A stretch of DNA of 64,000 nt, from NCBI RefSeq assembly GCF_020991005.1, contig NZ_JAJLLW010000002.1, positions 310,001-374,000 on the forward strand. The letters run 5' to 3'. Positions 39,533 through 48,629 of the stretch are shown piece after piece. The notes beneath the pieces are model-generated. The model was given only the letters and a program-made list of their open reading frames with translations, ran no database searches and was not told the DNA's origin. This stretch comes from Halomonas sp. CUBES01. Its GTDB lineage: Bacteria > Pseudomonadota > Gammaproteobacteria > Pseudomonadales > Halomonadaceae. Both the position numbers and the translations under genes were made by a program. Position 1 is the stretch's first letter; each line of letters begins with the position of its first letter.

Positions 39533-39679
39533 GATGCCTCCGGTAGTAATGATCCGGAGGGCAGGCGTGAGATCGAGGAAATGGCGCGGAAAGGTGTCGT
39601 GCGATCGTGGGAGAAAGCTAGCCATGGCCATCGCTTGATCCCTACGCCGGTACCCGCGCCGCAACTCATTTGAGCAGCA

Positions 39680-39775
39680 GCGCATTAGCCGGATCAGGTT
39701 CAGCGGGACCAGCGCTTGGCAGCAAAAAATGCACACCCTGCGCCATCTCAGCCGGATATCACCGGCACCCCGTCA
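39680..39775 (-). ncRNA. TPP riboswitch (THI element)
   Basis: On the minus strand the element starts GGGGTGCC, continues with GGCTGAGAT, and ends CTGAACCTGATCCGGCTAAT, all conserved TPP-binding blocks in the right order. It lies about 150 bases upstream of tenA-thiC, so thiamine pyrophosphate should turn this operon down. The 39533-39679 stretch is the expression platform; no clear terminator was seen there, which favours control of translation. Confidence 0.95.
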
Positions 39776-39862
39776 AGCTGTTCGTCGGTGGAGTGTAGGA
39801 GGCGGGTGGGGGAGATGCAAGAGAACTCCTGTGATCGGGTGACAGCTTTGCTACGTACGGCG

Positions 39863-40808
39863 CTAACCTAATGGGCTTCTAACACCCGTAAAGCCATTAC
39901 CCAGCACATGGGTGTATATTTGAGTGGTTTCGATGCTCTTGTGTCCCAGTAGCTCTTGAACCGTGCGAATATCGGTGCCTTGGCTTAGCAGCTGAGTTGC
40001 GAAACTGTGGCGTAAAGAGTGACATGACCCAGGGCGCGTCAGAGAAGAAGATCGCATGGCATATTTAACGGCTTTTTGTACGGCAGACGTATGAATGTGG
40101 TGTAGCACTATCCGGTTGTCGTCATCGAAACAGGGCTTGGATGAAGGAAAAAGCCATTGCCATGCGAGGGAAATGCCCGCATTCGGATATTTTTGATCCA
40201 GCGCGTAGGGCAGTGATACCGGAATGGCGTTGGTTTCAATGCGGGCCGCAAGCTGTTGCTCCGCTATCTGAATATGGGCGTTTAACGCTTCCTCACAAGA
40301 GGGGGGGCAATAGCGTGGTGCGGTCTTTATTGCCTTTGCCCGCACGGACAGTAATGACGTGACGCGCAAAATCGATATCTTTTACGCGTAACCGACAAGT
40401 TTCGGAGACTCTTAACCCAGAGCCGTACATCAGCGATGCAATCAGGAGCATGGAGCCGGACAGGTGCTCAAACACACCCATAACCTCCTGGTGGGAAAGC
40501 ACGACAGGCAAGCGCTGAGGGCGCTTAGCCCGGCTAAAATTACCAATCTCACCCAGCGGTTGATCTAGAACGTGGCGATAAAGAAATACGATGGCGTTGA
40601 GTGCCTGGTTTTGTGTTGCCGCAGCAACACGCCTCTCTATCGCGAGATATTCCAAAAATTGACGCACTTCATTACCCGCCATGGTGGCAGGATGCCGCAT
40701 TCTGTGGAAACGAATGAAAAAGCGAATCCAGTAGCAATAGGTTTTCTCAGTGCGAAGGCTATAGCGCTTGACTCTGAGGGCAGCTTTCACCCTCTCCATC
40801 AGTTTCAT
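39863..40808 (-). pseudogene. intI: Integron integrase, frameshifted
   Basis: A tyrosine recombinase of the IntI class split in two frames. The first frame reads from the ATG at 40808 to a stop just after KDRTTLLPP; the second resumes [12 protein letters not shown] and runs to 39863. The shift is at a run of seven C (40301-40307 on the plus strand as G); six C would give an intact 314-residue protein. All catalytic boxes survive: [20 protein letters not shown] and THV with the Tyr nucleophile. The insert [17 protein letters not shown] marks it as an integron integrase. It may be a real inactivation or a sequencing error. Confidence 0.9.
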
Positions 40809-40832
40809 AGATTGCACCCATGTCGCTTTTAA

Positions 40833-40848
40833 CTGATTTTATATACAG
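40833..40848. promoter_or_regulatory. LexA box upstream of intI
   Basis: CTGATTTTATATACAG has the exact CTG-N10-CAG layout with an AT-rich centre, 24 bases before the intI ATG. SOS control of integrase genes through LexA is established in other integrons. On the minus strand the site overlaps a plausible -10 TATAAA with -35 TTTGCT 18 bases upstream. Confidence 0.8.
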
Positions 40849-41024
40849 TATCATTGAAAATAGCAAATCGCGCAAGCACGCGAATTTTGTCTATACCGCC
40901 AAATTTTGCTTTGCTCTCAAGGGAATCAATGGGGTAGAGTCAAAATGGCAGGCTGCAAAATCTCAATGAATGCGCCGTCGCGTTCATTGAAGTTTTGTAG
41001 CTGGGTGTAGAATCACTGTTAGAA
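40849..41024 (+). other. attI region and first cassette boundary
   Basis: The spacer between intI and the first cassette should hold attI. GTTAGAA at 41018-41024 is the likely recombination point, since the first cassette then opens, as the others do, shortly before its gene. A 28-base dyad TCAATGAA/TTCATTGA with GCG/CGC extension lies at 40963-40990, and AATCGCG/CGCGAATT lies at about 40866-40887. A possible cassette promoter (TTGAAG, 15 bases, TAGAAT) is weak. Confidence 0.55.
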
Positions 41025-41042
41025 ATAAAAAAAGGAGATCTC

Positions 41043-42248
41043 GTGAGCAAGTACCATATTGCATTGTCGTTCGCTGGTGAAGATAGGGATTACGTCGATC
41101 GTGTTGCGAACCATCTACGCGAAAACGGTGTCGAGGTCTTCTACGATAAGTTCGAGGAAACCAAGCTCTGGGGGAAGGATCTCTATACATATTTGACGGA
41201 CATTTACCAAAACCGCGCGTTATATACAGTTATGTTCGTGTCTGAAGTCTACAAAGAAAAATTATGGACTAATCACGAGCGAAAAAGTGCTCAGGCTCGA
41301 GCTTTTACCGAAAGCCAAGAATATATCCTACCGGCGATGTTTGACGAAGATGTGGAAATTCCAGGGTTGCTGAGAACTACTGGCTATATCAGCTTGCGTG
41401 GTCTCTCGCCGGAAGAGTTCGGTGACAAGATAATTCAAAAACTCAAGGATAGCGGGGTGTCCCTTCAGGTAGAGGAAAAATTTAGTTATTCAGATTTCGC
41501 CAAAGCAGATATCGATTTTCCCCTAGCTGACTACCCTTCTGTATCTAATACCCTTGCTGATTTAAAGTCCAGCAATTGGTACACACAGAATCCCGCTATA
41601 AACAAGATATTCGAACTTGATTTGAACAGTCTAAGCGCTGACGAATTATTTGTACTTGGTCGAAACGTATACCAAACAGCATGTGGCGGAGAAAATAAGG
41701 CAAACGATATATTGGATAACCTGAGAAGAGATATGGCGACTATTCCTCAGGCAGCGGCAGAGCATTTGATCAACGGAATGTTCTACGAAGTGTATTTTGA
41801 TTCCAAGGGTGAATTTCGTGGCCGCAACTTGAAAAGTCGATGTTTGGACGAGTTACTAGAAATTCAATCCGTTGAAAAGTACTCAGATTCAATAATTTTT
41901 ATAAAGCAGGTTCTCCAACCTTATAAAGATCAATTGCCAATTATACCTGATTCGAAACCACAAGTTTTGATCATCGAGCTTGACCTTCAGAAAAAAGATC
42001 CGCCATCTATAGAGTCCATAATGATAAAAGGTCAGGAGCTTTTAATTGATGCGGAAGAAGACGAGGATTCTTTCAGTAACATGTGGAAGCTATCTTTCAG
42101 AGAGTTTAGTTTAGAAACTCTTAAAGAAACGATATCTAAAGAATGGCATGTTCCTGAGAAACAAATTGAGCTAAGGCCAGAGAGCGGTGACGCAATAAAG
42201 TATTCTCTGCCGAAAGGGAAGACCATTGGGTACCCGGATTCAGAGTAA
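41043..42248 (+). CDS. TIR-domain protein, integron cassette 1
   Basis: A 401-residue protein. Residues 3-130 form a TIR domain: ALSFAGEDRDYVDRVANHL and EVFYDKFEET at the BB-loop region, LWGKDL, and Glu79 in LWTNHERKSAQ at the position of the NAD-cleaving glutamate. The other 270 residues are helical and not recognised. Bacterial TIR proteins often act as NADases in phage defence; that role here is inference. The start is a GTG at 41043 with AAGGAG 5 bases upstream. The base composition is AT-rich compared with the backbone. Confidence 0.85.
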   Translation: MSKYHIALSFAGEDRDYVDRVANHLRENGVEVFYDKFEETKLWGKDLYTYLTDIYQNRALYTVMFVSEVYKEKLWTNHERKSAQARAFTESQEYILPAMFDEDVEIPGLLRTTGYISLRGLSPEEFGDKIIQKLKDSGVSLQVEEKFSYSDFAKADIDFPLADYPSVSNTLADLKSSNWYTQNPAINKIFELDLNSLSADELFVLGRNVYQTACGGENKANDILDNLRRDMATIPQAAAEHLINGMFYEVYFDSKGEFRGRNLKSRCLDELLEIQSVEKYSDSIIFIKQVLQPYKDQLPIIPDSKPQVLIIELDLQKKDPPSIESIMIKGQELLIDAEEDEDSFSNMWKLSFREFSLETLKETISKEWHVPEKQIELRPESGDAIKYSLPKGKTIGYPDSE

Positions 42249-42265
42249 CCTCGCGGACCCATTTT

Positions 42266-42335
42266 CTAACAAAGTGGTCAACGGGACGACAACTGAGCTG
42301 CGCTCCGTTGCCGCCCATTACCACCGGCGTTAGCT
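42266..42335 (+). other. attC site 1
   Basis: Starts CTAACAAAGTGGT and ends ACCACCGGCGTTAGCT, so the outer boxes and the GTGGT/ACCAC arms pair imperfectly. It lies 18 bases after the TIR stop. The cut point is in GTTAGCT at 42329. Confidence 0.8.
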
Positions 42336-42670
42336 GGTAGTGCCTCGGTCTTTTTGGGTGGCTGGGTGCCAGTGGCCTTGGCGGAAAGTTGGCAGCAAAA
42401 CCGGCATTTCCGGTGTTCCGCCAAGGCTGTCCGAATCCGCGTCGAGCTGGCAGCAAAAATCGGGCAGCGGTGTTGGTATAGACGTCGGTGTTCGCCTTGT
42501 GGGGCAATCCGCCGAAAATTTGGTCCGGACCTGCTACTCTGAAGTTCAGGTTCGTTCACCGCCTCATGGGCGGTGGTTTTAATCAGTGTGCATCGGCAGG
42601 TGTCGGTGCCAGGGCAGCGGAGCAGGTCGTCGCGTTGGTTGCCAGGGATCAGGTTTCACAATTACCCCCA
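42336..42670 (+). other. Apparently non-coding cassette 2
   Basis: No convincing gene lies between attC 1 and attC 2. An 80-residue frame from a GTG at 42340 has no clear ribosome site and unnatural composition. The stretch contains a perfect 11-bp inverted repeat (CCTTGGCGGAA at 42376 and TTCCGCCAAGG at 42416) enclosing ACCGG/CCGGT, and a terminator-like CACCGCC/GGCGGTG stem at 42557-42575 followed by GTTTT. A structured RNA is possible. Confidence 0.5.
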
Positions 42671-42777
42671 GCTAACCAGTCGTTCAAGTACGTTCCGGCC
42701 TTCGGCCTCCACCGGACGCCCTTTCCATGGCGCCTTTGGCACCATTCCAAGGGCGCCGCTTAACATTGGCGTTATTT
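42671..42777 (+). other. attC site 2
   Basis: Begins GCTAACCAGTCGTTCAAG and ends CGCTTAACATTGGCGTTATT; the two ends are imperfect inverted repeats. At about 105 bases it is longer than the other sites. It closes cassette 2. Confidence 0.7.
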
Positions 42778-42792
42778 TTACCAGAGGTAGCT

Positions 42793-43149
42793 GTGAACTT
42801 TGAAGTGAATAACGTATTTGGGCACTATGAAGGCCACATTGACCGAGAAGCTCGCAAGGTTCGAACGGTGGAGCCGTCAACTGGGAAAATGATCATGCTA
42901 GGCTTTGATGATTTCGGAGATGTTAATCCAGCACCAGAGTTGGCGGATAAATTTGGGGGAGGTTGCAGGGGAATCCATATTAAGGTCAGGGATCTCATAA
43001 ATGAAATTGAGGAGTCCGAGAAAGCGTCGGAGAAACAGATTCCGAGCTTCATTGCGCTCCTCCAGGATTACTGTAGCCATCACTATATCTTGATTACCGT
43101 TGCACTATCGTTCTTGAGCGTATTAATAGCGTTGGTGGCGTTGTTTTGA
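42793..43149 (+). CDS. Small tail-anchored protein, integron cassette 3
   Basis: A 118-residue protein I do not recognise. The N-terminal 90 residues are soluble and charged; the last 21 (ILITVALSFLSVLIALVALF region) form one membrane helix at the extreme C terminus, so it should be tail-anchored. The GTG at 42793 has AGAGGT upstream and lies inside the cassette; the frame extension to 42727 crosses attC 2 and is rejected. Confidence 0.7.
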   Translation: MNFEVNNVFGHYEGHIDREARKVRTVEPSTGKMIMLGFDDFGDVNPAPELADKFGGGCRGIHIKVRDLINEIEESEKASEKQIPSFIALLQDYCSHHYILITVALSFLSVLIALVALF

Positions 43150-43157
43150 AAGGAAAA

Positions 43158-43234
43158 ATAACCAAGCGCAGCACTACGCGGCCTGTCGGCCGCCGGATGC
43201 TCGCAAGCTCGCACCGGTGTGCACGGCGTTAGAT
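43158..43234 (+). other. attC site 3
   Basis: Begins TAACCAAGCGCAGCAC and ends GTGTGCACGGCGTTAGAT. The middle has TCGCAAGCTCGC, a block shared with attC 4. It closes cassette 3. Confidence 0.78.
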
Positions 43235-43250
43235 TTCTCAAGGAGCGTAT

Positions 43251-43940
43251 GTGGATATACCTTCGAAACATGTGCTTGATGCGTTAATGGATGAAGGAAT
43301 TGATGAGTTGCATCACGCAAATAGCGTTGCGACCGCATGTCAATTTCTACGGTCTCGCTCCCTGATGTCTAGGGGAACTGTTGAGCGGCTTGGGATCACA
43401 CAGACACCTCAAAGCTCAGATGACCTAGATAAGCGCTATGGAATCTGGTTTGATGTCTTCGCTGACTCCGTTGATATTCATAATAGAGCTAAAAGAGCAA
43501 ACGCCTACGGCCCGGTAATGTTTGTCTTAGACACGGAGCTAATCAATAGGTCTTATACGGGGCGCATCTGGGTGACGAAGTTAAACCCGACTAAATGGTC
43601 TGGAAAATCTGAAAAGCAAAGGTGGTTTCAAGACAAGAAAGATCTTGAAGATAATCTCACCAAAGGTACTTTCGATCAAATGTTAGTATTCCGTCATTGC
43701 GGTGGAGAGCTTCCATTTAAGAAGTTCTTGAAAAGAATTATTTTAGATGACCCACAGCGCACGACCGAAGAAGATGTGGACCTCTATAGTATGGCCGTGG
43801 GAGCATTAAGGCTCGCCATGTCTGATAGTGGTTTGGACATCCCTATTGAACGCCGTGTATGTCGAGCAGGCTGCAAATGCAATGACAATTATGGCGAAGA
43901 CGATGAACGTTTGTACATGATGTTTGACCCAAAAATCTAA
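43251..43940 (+). CDS. Unrecognised 229-residue protein, integron cassette 4
   Basis: No family is certain. The opening (ELHHANSVATACQFLRSRSL) has the look of ADP-ribosyltransferase-like proteins, in which a His-containing strand precedes a helix and a Leu-Ser-Arg loop; FDQMLVFRHCGGELPF later resembles their late strand, but the expected catalytic Glu is not obvious. The C terminus has a small Cys cluster (VCRAGCKC). Start is the GTG at 43251 with AAGGAG upstream; the out-of-frame ATG at 43249 stops soon. The stop codon is part of attC 4. Confidence 0.7.
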   Translation: MDIPSKHVLDALMDEGIDELHHANSVATACQFLRSRSLMSRGTVERLGITQTPQSSDDLDKRYGIWFDVFADSVDIHNRAKRANAYGPVMFVLDTELINRSYTGRIWVTKLNPTKWSGKSEKQRWFQDKKDLEDNLTKGTFDQMLVFRHCGGELPFKKFLKRIILDDPQRTTEEDVDLYSMAVGALRLAMSDSGLDIPIERRVCRAGCKCNDNYGEDDERLYMMFDPKI

Positions 43941-44012
43941 CAAACACATTAAATACGCTCCCTACGGTCGCCGGGCACTCGCAAGCTCGCGCCGTTTATG
44001 TGGGCGTTAGCG
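43936..44012 (+). other. attC site 4
   Basis: Begins TCTAACAAACACAT and ends ATGTGGGCGTTAGCG, with well-paired CACAT/ATGTG arms and the inner TCGCAAGCTCGC block. It overlaps the stop of the cassette 4 gene. Confidence 0.82.
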
Positions 44013-44034
44013 AGTAAGGAGATTTATACAAAAT

Positions 44035-46500
44035 ATGGCAAAAAAAGAAGCAAAAACAGATTTCTGGGTTTATGGCCTTCTGAAGGAAGCAGGCATCGAA
44101 CTGGAACCACAAGGAAGCTCTGTCAAAGAAATCAATGACGCTCTGAAAACTGCGTCAAAGGCTGGATCGGGCAAGGTCGGCTTCCCCGAATTCGTCGGGC
44201 TCGTTAAAGATTTCTTGTTGATTATTGAAAACAAAGCGGACGTTGCCAAACACGTTAAAAGAACCAAGGGCGACACGATCAGCGCGACTGTGAAGGATGT
44301 AAAAGACTGCGCCGTGAATGGTGCTTTATTTTATGGTAAGCATTTAGCCAAAAACACGAGTTATAATAAGATTATCGCCTTTGGTATATCCGGCGATAAA
44401 AAGCAGCACCATATTAGCCCAGTTTTCATTGATGAAACTGAATACTACCGGGAATTGCCTGATGTAGAATCTTTCATTTCATTCAATGAAGAAAATATCG
44501 AAGGATATTACACAAGAGAAATTCTGGAAGAAGAAACTGATTACGATAAAGAGCTTCATGAAATCCTGAAGGATGCCGCAGAGCTTCACGAAGATTTGCG
44601 GAACTACGGCAATTTGAAAGACATAGACAAGCCGCTTGTTGTATCAGGTATTTTGCTGGCGCTTCGGGAGTCTGAATACAAAAACTTTTCAACTGATGAT
44701 CTGGTTGGCGATGACAACATTAGCACCGATGGCGATAAGGTCTTCAAAGCCATTGCATCGAACCTCAAGCGCTCTAACGTTCGGCCTGATGTTAAGCGTG
44801 ATAAAATCCTGAGCCAGTTTGCGATTATCAAAGATACCCAAATCCTGAACGAGATTAATACCACGCTCGGCAAGACTCCTCTGAAGCATTTCACCGAGTT
44901 TTTGAACCAGCGGATATACAGGAGTATTCGCTACACTAGCTCCTCGGAGGACTATCTGGGACGGTTCTACGGCGAGTTTATGTCCTACTCGGGTGGGGAT
45001 GGCCAGACCCTCGGCATTGTTCTGACTCCAAAACACATAACGGATCTGTTCTGTGAATTGATGGACATTCAGCCCGATGATATCGTCTTTGATCCGTGCG
45101 CGGGCACAGCGGGCTTTCTCATTGCCGCTATGCACCACATGATTGCTCAGGCGGACACCGAAGAGCAGAAAAAGAACATTCGTCAAAGACAGCTTCACGG
45201 GCTGGAATTGCAACCCTACATGTTCACCATTGCTACCACGAACATGATTTTGCGGGGTGATGGCAAATCCAACTTGGTCAATCACAACTTCTTGAAAGAG
45301 AGCGCTAGCAAGATCCAGCTTAACGGGGCAACGGTTGGAATGATGAACCCACCGTATTCGCAAGGCTCCAAGAAGAACCCTGACCTTTACGAAATCGCCT
45401 TCACAGAGCATCTGCTGGACTCATTGACCGAGGGTGGCCGTGCGGTAGTTATCGTGCCTCAGTCGTCAATGACCGGGAAATCATCGGAAGAAAAAGCCAT
45501 TAAAGGCAATATCTTGAAAAAACACACGTTAGAGGGTGTGATTACGCTGAACAGCGATACCTTCTATGGCGTTGGGACTTTGCCCTGTATAGCGATATTT
45601 ACAGCCAATGAGCCACATCCGAAAGGCAAGGAATGCCGATTCATCGACTTCCGGGATGATGGCTACAAAATCAATCCGCACATCGGCCTGGTTGAGACTG
45701 AGCAGGCCAAGGACAGAAAGCAACACCTGCTGGATGTCTGGTTTGAGCGGATAGAAGCGGCAACAAATTTTTGCGTGAAAACGTCTATTGAAAAGGACGA
45801 TGAATGGTTGCACAGCTTCTACTACTTCAATGACCTGATGCCCAATGAAAGGGAATTTGAAGCGGTAATCACTGATTTTCTGGCCTTTGAATATCTCATG
45901 ATCGTAAAGAACAGATCCTATTTATTTGAAGGGTTGAGCTGGCACGATGTGACGCAAAAAGAGATAGAGAATCTAGTTGAAAAAGATTGGGAAGAGTTCT
46001 TCCTGAAGAGCATTTTCAAAGAGGTTCAGCGCGGCAAACGCTTGAAGAAAGATGATCAGGTGCCGGGGAAAAAGCCCTACATTTCCTCGACCTCACTGAA
46101 TAACGGCGTTGATAATTTCATCGGGAATAATTCCGGCGTTCGGATTTTCTCAGACTGCCTTACTGTTGCGAATAGCGGCAGTGTAGGGTCAAGTTTTTAT
46201 CATCCATACAGCTTCGTTGCCAGTGATCACGTAACCCATCTAGCGAACAATGAATTTAGCAAATACATCTATTTATTCATTGCAGCGCTGACAAATCGGC
46301 TGTCCGAAAAATATAACTTTAATCGGGAAATAAATGACAAGCGAATCAGTCGCGAAAAAATTATGTTACCGGTGACCGAAGAAGGGAAGCCAGATTTCGA
46401 ATACATGGAACAATACATGAAGAATCTGGTTGCTAGGAAGCGCATTCAATACAATACGTTCCTATCTACTGTTGAAAAGCATCCTGACGCAAGCAAATGA
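44035..46500 (+). CDS. Single-chain restriction-modification enzyme (type IIG-like), cassette 5
   Basis: An 821-residue protein. N-terminal nuclease signs: Asp59 and Glu65-x-Lys67 in KDFLLIIENK, matching the PD-(D/E)XK layout. The middle is an HsdM-type N6-adenine methylase: FDPCAGTAGF (residues 352-361) as motif I and NPPY (438-441) as motif IV. From about 650 to the end it resembles an HsdS-type target-recognition domain (QRGKRLKKDD, then KPYISSTSL). All three functions in one chain is the type IIG plan. At 2.5 kb it is large for an integron cassette. Confidence 0.85.
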   Translation: MAKKEAKTDFWVYGLLKEAGIELEPQGSSVKEINDALKTASKAGSGKVGFPEFVGLVKDFLLIIENKADVAKHVKRTKGDTISATVKDVKDCAVNGALFYGKHLAKNTSYNKIIAFGISGDKKQHHISPVFIDETEYYRELPDVESFISFNEENIEGYYTREILEEETDYDKELHEILKDAAELHEDLRNYGNLKDIDKPLVVSGILLALRESEYKNFSTDDLVGDDNISTDGDKVFKAIASNLKRSNVRPDVKRDKILSQFAIIKDTQILNEINTTLGKTPLKHFTEFLNQRIYRSIRYTSSSEDYLGRFYGEFMSYSGGDGQTLGIVLTPKHITDLFCELMDIQPDDIVFDPCAGTAGFLIAAMHHMIAQADTEEQKKNIRQRQLHGLELQPYMFTIATTNMILRGDGKSNLVNHNFLKESASKIQLNGATVGMMNPPYSQGSKKNPDLYEIAFTEHLLDSLTEGGRAVVIVPQSSMTGKSSEEKAIKGNILKKHTLEGVITLNSDTFYGVGTLPCIAIFTANEPHPKGKECRFIDFRDDGYKINPHIGLVETEQAKDRKQHLLDVWFERIEAATNFCVKTSIEKDDEWLHSFYYFNDLMPNEREFEAVITDFLAFEYLMIVKNRSYLFEGLSWHDVTQKEIENLVEKDWEEFFLKSIFKEVQRGKRLKKDDQVPGKKPYISSTSLNNGVDNFIGNNSGVRIFSDCLTVANSGSVGSSFYHPYSFVASDHVTHLANNEFSKYIYLFIAALTNRLSEKYNFNREINDKRISREKIMLPVTEEGKPDFEYMEQYMKNLVARKRIQYNTFLSTVEKHPDASK

Positions 46501-46570
46501 TTCTCTGGTTTTTGACGAAACCCCTCAGGAAATTCATGTGGTTGAGTCGGTGGCGATAACTTATATATAA

Positions 46571-46629
46571 GCTAACAAAACATTGCAGCGGACGCGTAAA
46601 AGCCGCGCCGCTGAATGTTGGCGTTAGCT
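46571..46629 (+). other. attC site 5
   Basis: A compact 59-base site. GCTAAC, CATT and CAGCGG on the left pair with CCGCTG, AATG and GTTAGC on the right; the loop is short. It is the best-formed attC in the array and closes cassette 5. Confidence 0.88.
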
Positions 46630-46633
46630 GTGA

Positions 46634-46668
46634 TTGCCTCACCTGAAAAGTGATACTATAGTGTCACT
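46634..46668 (+). promoter_or_regulatory. Promoter and operator of the toxin-antitoxin cassette
   Basis: TTGCCT and TATAGT are 17 bases apart, a good sigma70 promoter. The -10 lies inside a 20-base dyad, AGTGATACTA and TAGTGTCACT, with 9 of 10 positions symmetric, the expected autoregulatory operator. It sits just after attC 5, so the cassette is self-expressed. Confidence 0.78.
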
Positions 46669-46692
46669 ATTAATCTAATTCAGGGTGAGCCC

Positions 46693-46950
46693 GTGAAAGT
46701 TGAGCTTGTTACGAACCTCAAGCGCCAAGCCACAAAGATTCTGGCAGATCTGCACTTGTCTAAAGAGCCGATACTGATCACGGAGCATGGTCAGCCATCC
46801 GCATACCTTGTCGATGTGCAGGATTACGAGTTCATGCAGCGCCGACTTGAGCTGCTTGAGGGGCTCTCACGGGGAGAGCGTGCTGTACTTGAGGGAAGAA
46901 CGTACAGCCAAAGTGAGGCCAGGGAGAAAATGAGTAAATGGCTGAGGTAA
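46693..46950 (+). CDS. Phd/YefM-family antitoxin, integron cassette 6
   Basis: An 85-residue antitoxin. The N-terminal half has the family pattern (KRQATKILADLHLSKEPILI then GQPSAYLVDV) used for DNA binding and dimerisation; the C-terminal helix should wrap the toxin. Start is a GTG at 46693. It overlaps the toxin gene by 13 bases, the usual coupled layout, and lies under its own promoter and dyad operator. Confidence 0.88.
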   Translation: MKVELVTNLKRQATKILADLHLSKEPILITEHGQPSAYLVDVQDYEFMQRRLELLEGLSRGERAVLEGRTYSQSEAREKMSKWLR

Positions 46951-47240
46951 TCTGGACGGAGCCCGCCCTCCAGGAACTGGATGCCATTGCTGAGTACATT
47001 GCTCTGGATAATCCTGCTGCCGCAAGCCATTTGGTCGCGGAAGTTTTCGATAAAATCGAGCGTCTGGAAGATTTTCCCCAATACGGGCGGATTCCCCCGG
47101 AGCTGACTAATTCGGTATACAGGGAAGTAGTGATTCCACCGTGTCGCATTTTTTATCGTGAGGATGGAAAGCGAGTTCTCGTCCTCTATGTCATGCGAGA
47201 GGAGCGGCAGCTTCGTGCGTACATGCTTGGGAAAAGCTAA
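46938..47240 (+). CDS. RelE/ParE-family toxin, integron cassette 6
   Basis: A 100-residue toxin. WTEPALQELDAIAEYIALDN at the N terminus and RIFYREDGKRVLVLYVMRE at the C terminus are family marks; the sequence is nearer the ParE side (gyrase inhibitors) than the mRNA-cutting RelE side, but this is not decisive. It forms a pair with the antitoxin. The stop is at the start of a TAACC box. Confidence 0.88.
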   Translation: MAEVIWTEPALQELDAIAEYIALDNPAAASHLVAEVFDKIERLEDFPQYGRIPPELTNSVYREVVIPPCRIFYREDGKRVLVLYVMREERQLRAYMLGKS

Positions 47241-47350
47241 CCAGGCGCGTCACTAGGATGCCTTCGTCTCCGCTTCGCTACGTCAAAGCCATTGGCTTGT
47301 GCCCAATTGATCATGGAAGTATATGTTCAGGGTATACTCAGGCGTTAAAG
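47236..47350 (+). other. Degraded attC-like site at the array end
   Basis: The left end GCTAACCAGGCG and the right end AGGCGTTAAAG look like attC boxes, but the arms between them do not pair well. It may be a recombined or decayed attC, and the last boundary of the array. The LysE gene then starts like a cassette gene. Confidence 0.4.
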
Positions 47351-47361
47351 GAGAATCCGTT

Positions 47362-47982
47362 GTGACCTTGATGACCATCCTGTTATTCATACCCGCATGT
47401 TTTGCGTTGAACATGGCGCCTGGCCCCAATAACCTTCTTTCGATGGCGAACGCCAAGCGCTATGGCATCAAGGCTGCCTGTTATGCAGGCATTGGTCGGC
47501 TGGTCGCATTTGTGGGCATGATCACGCTTGCCGCGACAGGGCTGGCAACAGTGCTGTATACGTCCGAAAAATTATTTTTTGTAATAAAGATCGTTGGAGG
47601 GCTCTACCTACTTTGGCTGGCCTTTCAGCTTTGGACGGCAGACCCAACTGACGGTGGGGACGAAGCCCAGGGTGGCAAAAGCCTGTTTCAGCTGGCGAGG
47701 CAAGAGTTTTTCCTGGCGGCTGGAAACCCCAAGGCAATTTTGATTTTTACAGCTTTCCTGCCTCAGTTTGTCGATCCTGCAGGCTCTGTAGGACTCCAGT
47801 TCTTGATGTTAGGTGGGCTTTTTTTGACGCTTGAATGGGTCGCAATAGCCGGGTATGCCTTTTTTGGCAAAGCGCTGCGTCATTGGTTCTCTCGCCCCTC
47901 GTTGCGCCGCCTGTTCAATAGACTTTGTGCCGGATTGCTTGGAAGTGCTGGCGTTGGGCTCTTGCTGGCGCGTCGTGAGTAA
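47362..47982 (+). CDS. LysE/RhtB-family amino acid exporter
   Basis: A 206-residue inner-membrane protein with six hydrophobic helices. The family motif ALNMAPGPNNLLSMANAKRYG lies near the N terminus and FFLAAGNPKAILIFTAFLPQF in the middle. Substrates are amino acids or related metabolites. The GTG at 47362 has AAGGAG 8 bases upstream; ATG at 47371 is an alternative. The short leader after GCGTTAAAG suggests it was a cassette gene, but no attC follows it. Confidence 0.85.
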   Translation: MTLMTILLFIPACFALNMAPGPNNLLSMANAKRYGIKAACYAGIGRLVAFVGMITLAATGLATVLYTSEKLFFVIKIVGGLYLLWLAFQLWTADPTDGGDEAQGGKSLFQLARQEFFLAAGNPKAILIFTAFLPQFVDPAGSVGLQFLMLGGLFLTLEWVAIAGYAFFGKALRHWFSRPSLRRLFNRLCAGLLGSAGVGLLLARRE

Positions 47983-48406: not shown

Positions 48407-48494
48407 TCAGTGGTAAATCCGCACAAGGCGCTAAAGAATCGAAGTGCTGAGGCTCAGCTAAAAAAGGAACGTTAAGCCAGTAGTGACACCGGAG

Positions 48495-48629
48495 CTAGGC
48501 AATGAGCAAAGCGTAACCCGTGACTTTGTAAACCACTCGGTGCTCTTCGTTGACTCGCGAAGACCCATAACCGGCAAACCTCGCCATATTGACGAACCGT
48601 TTTCCGCTCTGAATCGATGACCGAAGCGC
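48495..48629 (-). pseudogene. YoeB/Txe toxin remnant
   Basis: The minus-strand frame ending at 48495 reads GYGSSRVNEEHRVVYKV followed by TGYALLIA and a stop. This matches the C-terminal region of YoeB/Txe toxins (SRRI-EEHRLVY-V type) but stops before the final CRYHY and lacks the N-terminal half. No antitoxin is beside it. It is too short and incomplete to be active. Confidence 0.65.

Follow-up and report, generated by a model that had tools for sequence, protein, structure and literature searches.

What kind of element separates tenA-thiC from an outer-membrane protein gene in Halomonas sp. CUBES01, and how did its genes come to lie there? We analyzed a stretch of 64,000 nucleotides (contig NZ_JAJLLW010000002.1, positions 310,001–374,000 of the forward strand), hereafter called the window, whose numbering is used for all coordinates given without a locus or contig name. 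An original prediction had read positions 39863–47350 as a chromosomal integron carrying mostly defense or addiction modules. Using the open reading frames (ORFs) of the window, Pfam and TIGR profiles, and attC pairing, we identified a Vreelandella chromosomal integron in which plus-strand cassettes, seven by our count, lie beside a minus-strand integrase gene, intI. The minus-strand intI and the attC sites between plus-strand genes were as predicted, but intI is not whole and the array does not end where it was thought to. In all likelihood, a sedentary chromosomal integron has stood at tenA since early Vreelandella, its seven cassettes were gathered by IntI at attI, and its intI is now split at a run of G residues.

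The same tenA site across the genus

We matched tenA in 78 of 82 genomes of the genus, that of the window included, and examined the locus in 72 relatives (G025, G033, G065, G071, and G072 were omitted). Both intI parts were present near full length in six of these loci, an intI remnant in 29, the attI region only in 20, and nothing in 17. After this graded loss, 55 of the 72 relatives still show some trace of the platform; some tenA stretches stop at a contig end, and a few remnants may be assembly cuts (G004). Matches to the integron integrase profile TIGR02249 over its cut-off were found in 19 of the 82 genomes, some of them away from tenA. The nearest relative seen (G017) has kept the attI region and 49 intI residues, with other genes between.

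Relatives carry different genes at this site. The window's genes in unchanged order but without integrase or attC, an arrangement named beforehand as contrary to an integron, did not appear among them. Only the toxin-antitoxin (TA) pair, the LysE exporter, a distant type IIG enzyme (33%, L122), and ParE-like fragments of the window's cassette proteins were seen in other loci; the TIR, 118-residue, and 229-residue proteins were found in none of the relatives' arrays compared. The integron thus occupies a fixed chromosomal site common to the clade, which is what defines a sedentary chromosomal integron, and judging from these sequences the platform looks ancestral in Vreelandella. In three loci, L226 (G007), L235 (G075), and L236 (G077), the start of tenA recurs in partial form several kb off, together with a portion of the attI or intI region, as if one end had been duplicated.

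The integrase gene

The integrase gene is encoded on the minus strand in two pieces. The C-terminal part (39863–40369, 168 residues), in a frame of its own, matched PF00589 and positions 165–312 of TIGR02249, and the N-terminal part (40293–40817, 174 residues), in a different frame, matched PF13495 and positions 2–166 of TIGR02249; each half scored below the whole-protein cut-off of that profile. Both frames are open and overlap at a G run near 40301–40307. The claim of an integron integrase on this strand therefore holds for both halves, but not the claim of a single protein. As it reads, intI of this strain is broken by a frameshift at the G run, unless the assembly is in error.

A LexA-like box (40831–40850, no strand assigned) lies at the upstream side of intI. 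This 20-mer agrees at 16 of 20 positions with a LexA-box consensus and is the best in the window (next best, 12), and CTG-N10-CAG is kept there in 13 of 32 aligned relatives. The box may once have placed intI under SOS control.

The attI region

The attI region lies beside intI, and the homology to relatives ends at GTTA (41018–41022), at 41021–41022, within the plus-strand crossover GTTAGAA (41018–41024). Just ahead of it is a −10-like TAGAAT (41008–41013, plus strand), recognized by eye as a possible cassette promoter; many relatives have TATAAT. The alignment of relatives further revealed a palindrome of 23 pairs (40952–41001, no strand assigned), for which we used 49 relatives' loci and the window (50 sequences), aligned without regard to structure. 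The 23 pairs formed in 90.9% of cells compared with 36.6–40.9% when the structure was slid by one to three columns, although a structure derived from the same sequences has an advantage over slid versions. Cells changed on both sides numbered 65, against 26.8 in shuffles (reached by 0 of 500) and 2–19 in slid versions, and the covariation score was 0.240 compared with 0.170 in shuffles, comparisons that kinship may inflate. Two other measures were no higher than in shuffles: pairs changed on both sides (7 versus 6.3) and further pair types (24 versus 24.0). Most likely the palindrome acts at the level of DNA, because RNA made from the presumed promoter would not include it.

attC sites

Six plus-strand attC sites were assigned. 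For each, we give the share of 20000 random arm pairs from elsewhere in the window that reached the arm score of the site, as computed with a pairing script; this script took the place of an attC covariance model, since in a MAFFT alignment the left arms were not in register. The lowest shares were those of attC5 (46570–46629, 0.02%), attC1 (42264–42335, 0.25%; similar sites in L125 and L153), and attC4 (43935–44012, 2.5%; similar sites in L125, L133, and L039). Pairing was weaker for attC3 (43156–43234, 11.5%), whose counterparts in L129, L045, and L050 are 79–87% identical, and weak for attC2 (42670–42777, 26%), which has similar sites in L151, L217, and L220; its arms differ from those of L217, yet by eye both sets pair. 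The sixth site, attC6 (47235–47350, 53%), is a degenerate composite of the left part of the site of the TA cassette, as in L153, and the GGCGTTA found ahead of LysE in L147. A first, stricter script had recovered attC5 alone, and a cruder window-wide score placed attC5 and attC1 at the top, with unrelated places equaling attC3 and attC4. Five well-formed sites had been predicted: three of them, attC1, attC4, and attC5, stand above chance, whereas attC2 and attC3 are weak on pairing and are backed by similar sites in other integrons.

The cassette array

Counted from attI, the cassettes carry a TIR protein, no gene, a 118-residue protein, a 229-residue protein, a type IIG enzyme, a Phd/ParE pair, and LysE; tenA-thiC flanks the array on one side and an Ltp lipoprotein gene and the outer-membrane protein gene on the other. 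The original prediction had counted at least six cassettes, and the profile matches returned the TIR (PF13676), type IIG restriction-modification (PDLC03602), and Phd/ParE identities as first read. Its end at 47350 did not stand: the LysE gene (47339–47982, plus strand, profile match), which had been missed, is a seventh cassette with attC behind it in relatives. In Vreelandella subterranea (L039), LysE lies directly at attI and is followed by attC, and in G059 (L147) it is flanked by two attC sites. In the window and L230 it runs into the Ltp gene with attC absent; L223, L226, and L143 retain only its end. Because relatives have attC behind LysE and the window and L230 have none, LysE is, on this comparison, a cassette that lost its own attC, and it marks the right border of the array.

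The first cassette (41043–42248, plus strand) encodes a 401-residue protein with 1626 homologues. Its nearest solved chains are AbTIR-type TIR domains, and Glu-79, which we take to be catalytic, is invariant across 56 TIR rows. The TIR domain and the conserved glutamate make it a candidate NADase effector. The C-terminal 250 residues (about 150–398), which no Pfam family covers, recur after Peptidase_C14 in three proteins (L239, L244, and L245) and after PIN_8 in one (L240), so that this region is shared with caspase and PIN proteins; all four are plasmid-borne. The TIR protein is rare, being matched in 5 of 369 genomes of the class, own included. Of the four other matches, one begins with a caspase-like part, whereas the remaining three cover only part of the query; by eye, a helicase-like ORF adjoins two of these three, where the stretch reaches.

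No convincing gene was found on the ORF list for the second cassette (42336–42669, plus strand), in agreement with its earlier reading as noncoding. Positions 42326–42622 are 67.8% alike to sequence next to the Halospina denitrificans integrase (L053), and this may be a conserved noncoding cassette. A terminator-like hairpin lies inside it (42556–42576). The third cassette (42793–43149, plus strand) encodes a protein with a hydrophobic C terminus and four homologues besides itself; its start is probably at 42793, giving 118 rather than 140 residues, because three of the four homologues have 118. The fifth cassette (44035–46500, plus strand) encodes a single-chain type IIG restriction-modification enzyme with PDLC03602 at residues 2–634 (E = 4.1e-165) and Methylase_S at 650–800; its nuclease motif was seen by eye only. 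In the sixth (46693–47240, plus strand), also found in L153 and L265, the genes for a Phd/YefM antitoxin (PF02604, 46693–46950) and a ParE toxin (PF05016, 46938–47240) overlap.

A predicted DarT-like fold in cassette 4

Like the 118-residue protein, the 229-residue product of the fourth cassette (43251–43940, plus strand) had been left as an unknown protein. Its AlphaFold2 model has a predicted local distance difference test (pLDDT) score of 89.1, and in a comparison with the PDB, ranks 1–7 of 95 matches were all DarT, the toxin of DarTG (E = 6.1e-4 to 7.1e-3, probability 0.98–1.00), with template modeling (TM) scores of 0.42–0.55 and root-mean-square deviations of 5.8–10.3; rank 8 had a probability of 0.54. 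We therefore describe it as a protein with a predicted DarT-like (ADP-ribosyltransferase toxin) fold, with moderate TM-scores and without sequence support.

Several results speak against this assignment. Just one of the 95 PDB matches has E ≤ 0.001. DarT was absent from the Pfam matches of 71 family members at E up to 10, and hhalign of the family against DarT gave a probability of 0.2%, the same outcome as a TIR profile used as a control; DarT identity by sequence was accordingly rejected. The DarT residue Glu-169 is invariant in 14 DarT rows, and by eye the facing place in the 229-residue family is not a glutamate, so that a catalytic glutamate is not evident. Finally, unlike DarT, the protein comes from a single-gene cassette between attC3 and attC4, with no DarG partner and no second gene.

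The 229-residue protein has 407 homologues of nearly constant length, several of them 92–98% identical in other genera, a distribution that suits a mobile cassette without proving one. A 92% relative (P0127) is named Kerstersia gyiorum. Within the genus the protein was absent from the 81 other genomes (1 of 82, own included), and in the class it was matched in 2 of 369 genomes, one of which is the own genome. Relatives were also found on four phage contigs, where terminase or tail genes adjoin in those scanned. On one phage contig (L246:4887–6574), the relative overlaps a 292-residue gene that matched no Pfam family and may be its partner.

Defense content of the array

Judged from profiles and the predicted fold, four of the six coding cassettes look like defense or addiction genes: TIR, the DarT-like protein, the type IIG enzyme, and Phd/ParE. 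If so, the array could act as a layered store: the type IIG enzyme would be directed at DNA entering the cell, the TIR effector would use NAD+, the DarT-like protein would serve as an ADP-ribosyltransferase, and Phd/ParE would work as an addiction pair. Among 132 ORFs of 20 relatives' arrays, the commonest Pfam families (best 25 of 78) were dehydrogenases, transposases, acetyltransferases, and regulators, with ParE in three. PADLOC families matched numbered 139 from these ORFs compared with 104 from 132 random own-genome ORFs; the scan does not discriminate, because generic helicases and ATPases match the control too, and the PADLOC and Pfam scans left a defense enrichment over chance in relatives' arrays undecided. 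The idea of a modular defense store is thus supported as to the integron and the type of genes, now including a DarT-like fold, but not as to enrichment beyond chance, and it had overlooked LysE and the broken intI.

Origin and present state of the integron

We consider that the cassettes entered at attI through IntI recombination. The TIR gene would then be the last arrival, because entry was at attI, and, should the −10-like box prove to be a promoter, also the most expressed. A split intI would leave the array fixed, except if an integrase supplied in trans acts on it or if the frameshift comes from an error in the assembly. Three results weigh against parts of this account. The source assembly consists of 30 contigs and could have misread the G run; the arm pairing of attC2, attC3, and attC6 is no better than chance would give; and a promoter scan called no promoter at attI, with 7 promoter-like sites window-wide compared with 9.4 in shuffles.

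The first of these bears on whether intI is whole in the living strain, the frameshift is a sequencing or assembly error, and the integron is active. The intI of V. subterranea, which has an open frame and an N part sharing 98% protein identity with that of the window, lends this view some weight, but intI loss is common in the genus, as the 29 loci with a remnant and the 20 with the attI region only attest, and we regard an active integron as unlikely. The chance-level pairing of three sites would also suit an ordinary defense island, built by other recombination and sprinkled with attC-like sequences by accident. This we disfavor as very improbable: pairing in attC1, attC4, and attC5 is not within chance, sites like attC1–attC4 occur in other integrons, and the TA cassette recurs in other arrays together with its attC-side sequence. 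A sedentary integron with a damaged integrase accounts for the locus best.

attI-like copies away from tenA

The own genome contains a second attI-like copy (G000:C26:81810–81877), followed by a caspase-domain gene. Behind that gene (L328:4009–6917), 84 bases on, lies a 470-residue ORF without a Pfam match. Matches to the attI region at E up to 1e-4 were found in 64 of the 82 genomes, own included; their number is not a number of places, as the palindrome matches both strands. Many of the matches listed stop at query positions 84–87, the crossover, and the homology of the copies ends at the crossover GTTA, like that of attI. In the copies the palindrome is perfect or nearly so and a TATAAT-like box is present, and the genes at them include caspase, glyoxalase-like, trypsin-like, and BrnT toxin (G021) genes.

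We inspected 31 loci, the best 30 and L328. Eleven lack tenA and one of these has intI, leaving ten without either, over about 1.5 kb on each side for nine. Eight of the ten contain a complete first gene. Behind seven of these genes lies an attC-like site with a score of 10.8 or more, the exception being L328; together the seven represent five distinct cassettes (L333 = L334; L353 = L357). As a control, 6 of 133 own-genome ORFs had any attC-like site and 3 had one at 10 or more. Applied to tenA loci and to window genes, the same test gave a score of 13 or more in 6 of 12 and in 3 of 6, respectively, and hence misses true sites.

These dispersed sites are the newest lead of our analysis. Vreelandella may hold a network of attI docking sites, amounting to an integron with several points of entry, in which the integron at tenA is accompanied by several integrase-less palindromic copies. 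Cassettes would enter these with IntI supplied in trans, at present or formerly; the palindrome, belonging to the docking site, would be under selection for its DNA structure, and single genes, among them ones of toxin or defense type (the caspase gene of the own genome, BrnT in G021), would come under separate promoters. We put this forward tentatively and rate it as doubtful, having lowered our estimate because the genomes of 6 of the 10 orphan cases (G000, G006, G026, G027, G034, and G076) lack a TIGR02249 match above the cut-off, which weighs against present in-trans activity there. The same absence, with the palindrome and TATAAT-like box common to the copies, suits a palindromic promoter repeat that docks nothing and that attI merely happens to contain as well. 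That explanation is a real possibility, although somewhat short of an even chance: it does not foresee the break in homology at GTTA, as at attI, nor attC-like sites in seven of eight testable copies compared with 3 of 133 control ORFs.

Relation to known systems

Chromosomal integrons have been described as defense libraries in Vibrio (Darracq 2025 and Getz 2025, as presented in the portions consulted of PMC12409362 and PMC12444791). Integron storage of defense genes is therefore already in print, and this part of our results is a further case of something known, by which a halophile genus joins those with defense-type genes in chromosomal integrons. As far as these portions describe them, the Vibrio integrons share with ours a chromosomal array and attC-separated cassettes, several of defense type; ours differs in having seven cassettes only, a split intI, other families, and an attI palindrome with dispersed copies. 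In Xanthomonas, according to the part of PMC12444791 consulted, an ancestral platform stands at one site, intI was repeatedly lost by frameshift, stop, or deletion, and arrays differ by species, all as found here. The neighbor there is ilvD rather than tenA-thiC, and that portion of text does not mention attI copies elsewhere. What our data contribute is a record of integrase loss at a single site through 72 genomes and a DarT-like family of 407 proteins without a Pfam name.

A search of the literature on integron, Halomonas, and attC turned up only carbonic anhydrase work, and in the literature on attG, attI, and CALIN (clusters of attC sites lacking integron-integrases), searched without Vreelandella as a term, we found no report of dispersed palindromic attI copies. 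As portrayed in the portion consulted of PMC7923331, CALIN elements likewise have attC cassettes with no integrase nearby, but the orphan units here retain an attI-like site and the palindrome. The Delta-attI cassettes of mobile integrons and the attG sites (PMC12901181, in the portion consulted) are likewise IntI sites beyond the canonical attI; Delta-attI, however, is a partial attI within mobile-integron cassettes, and what is dispersed here, in chromosomes, is the whole attI-like region. Copies of attI thus occur without an integrase. If cassettes do enter them, an integron can consist of more than one array, and software that seeks intI or runs of attC would overlook such sites.

Two further features flank the integron. 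A thiamine pyrophosphate (TPP) riboswitch lies on the minus strand at 39622–39782, upstream of tenA and thiC. At the other end, a 106-base stretch (48470–48575) ahead of the outer-membrane protein gene recurs beside the same gene in many relatives and is doubled in some loci.

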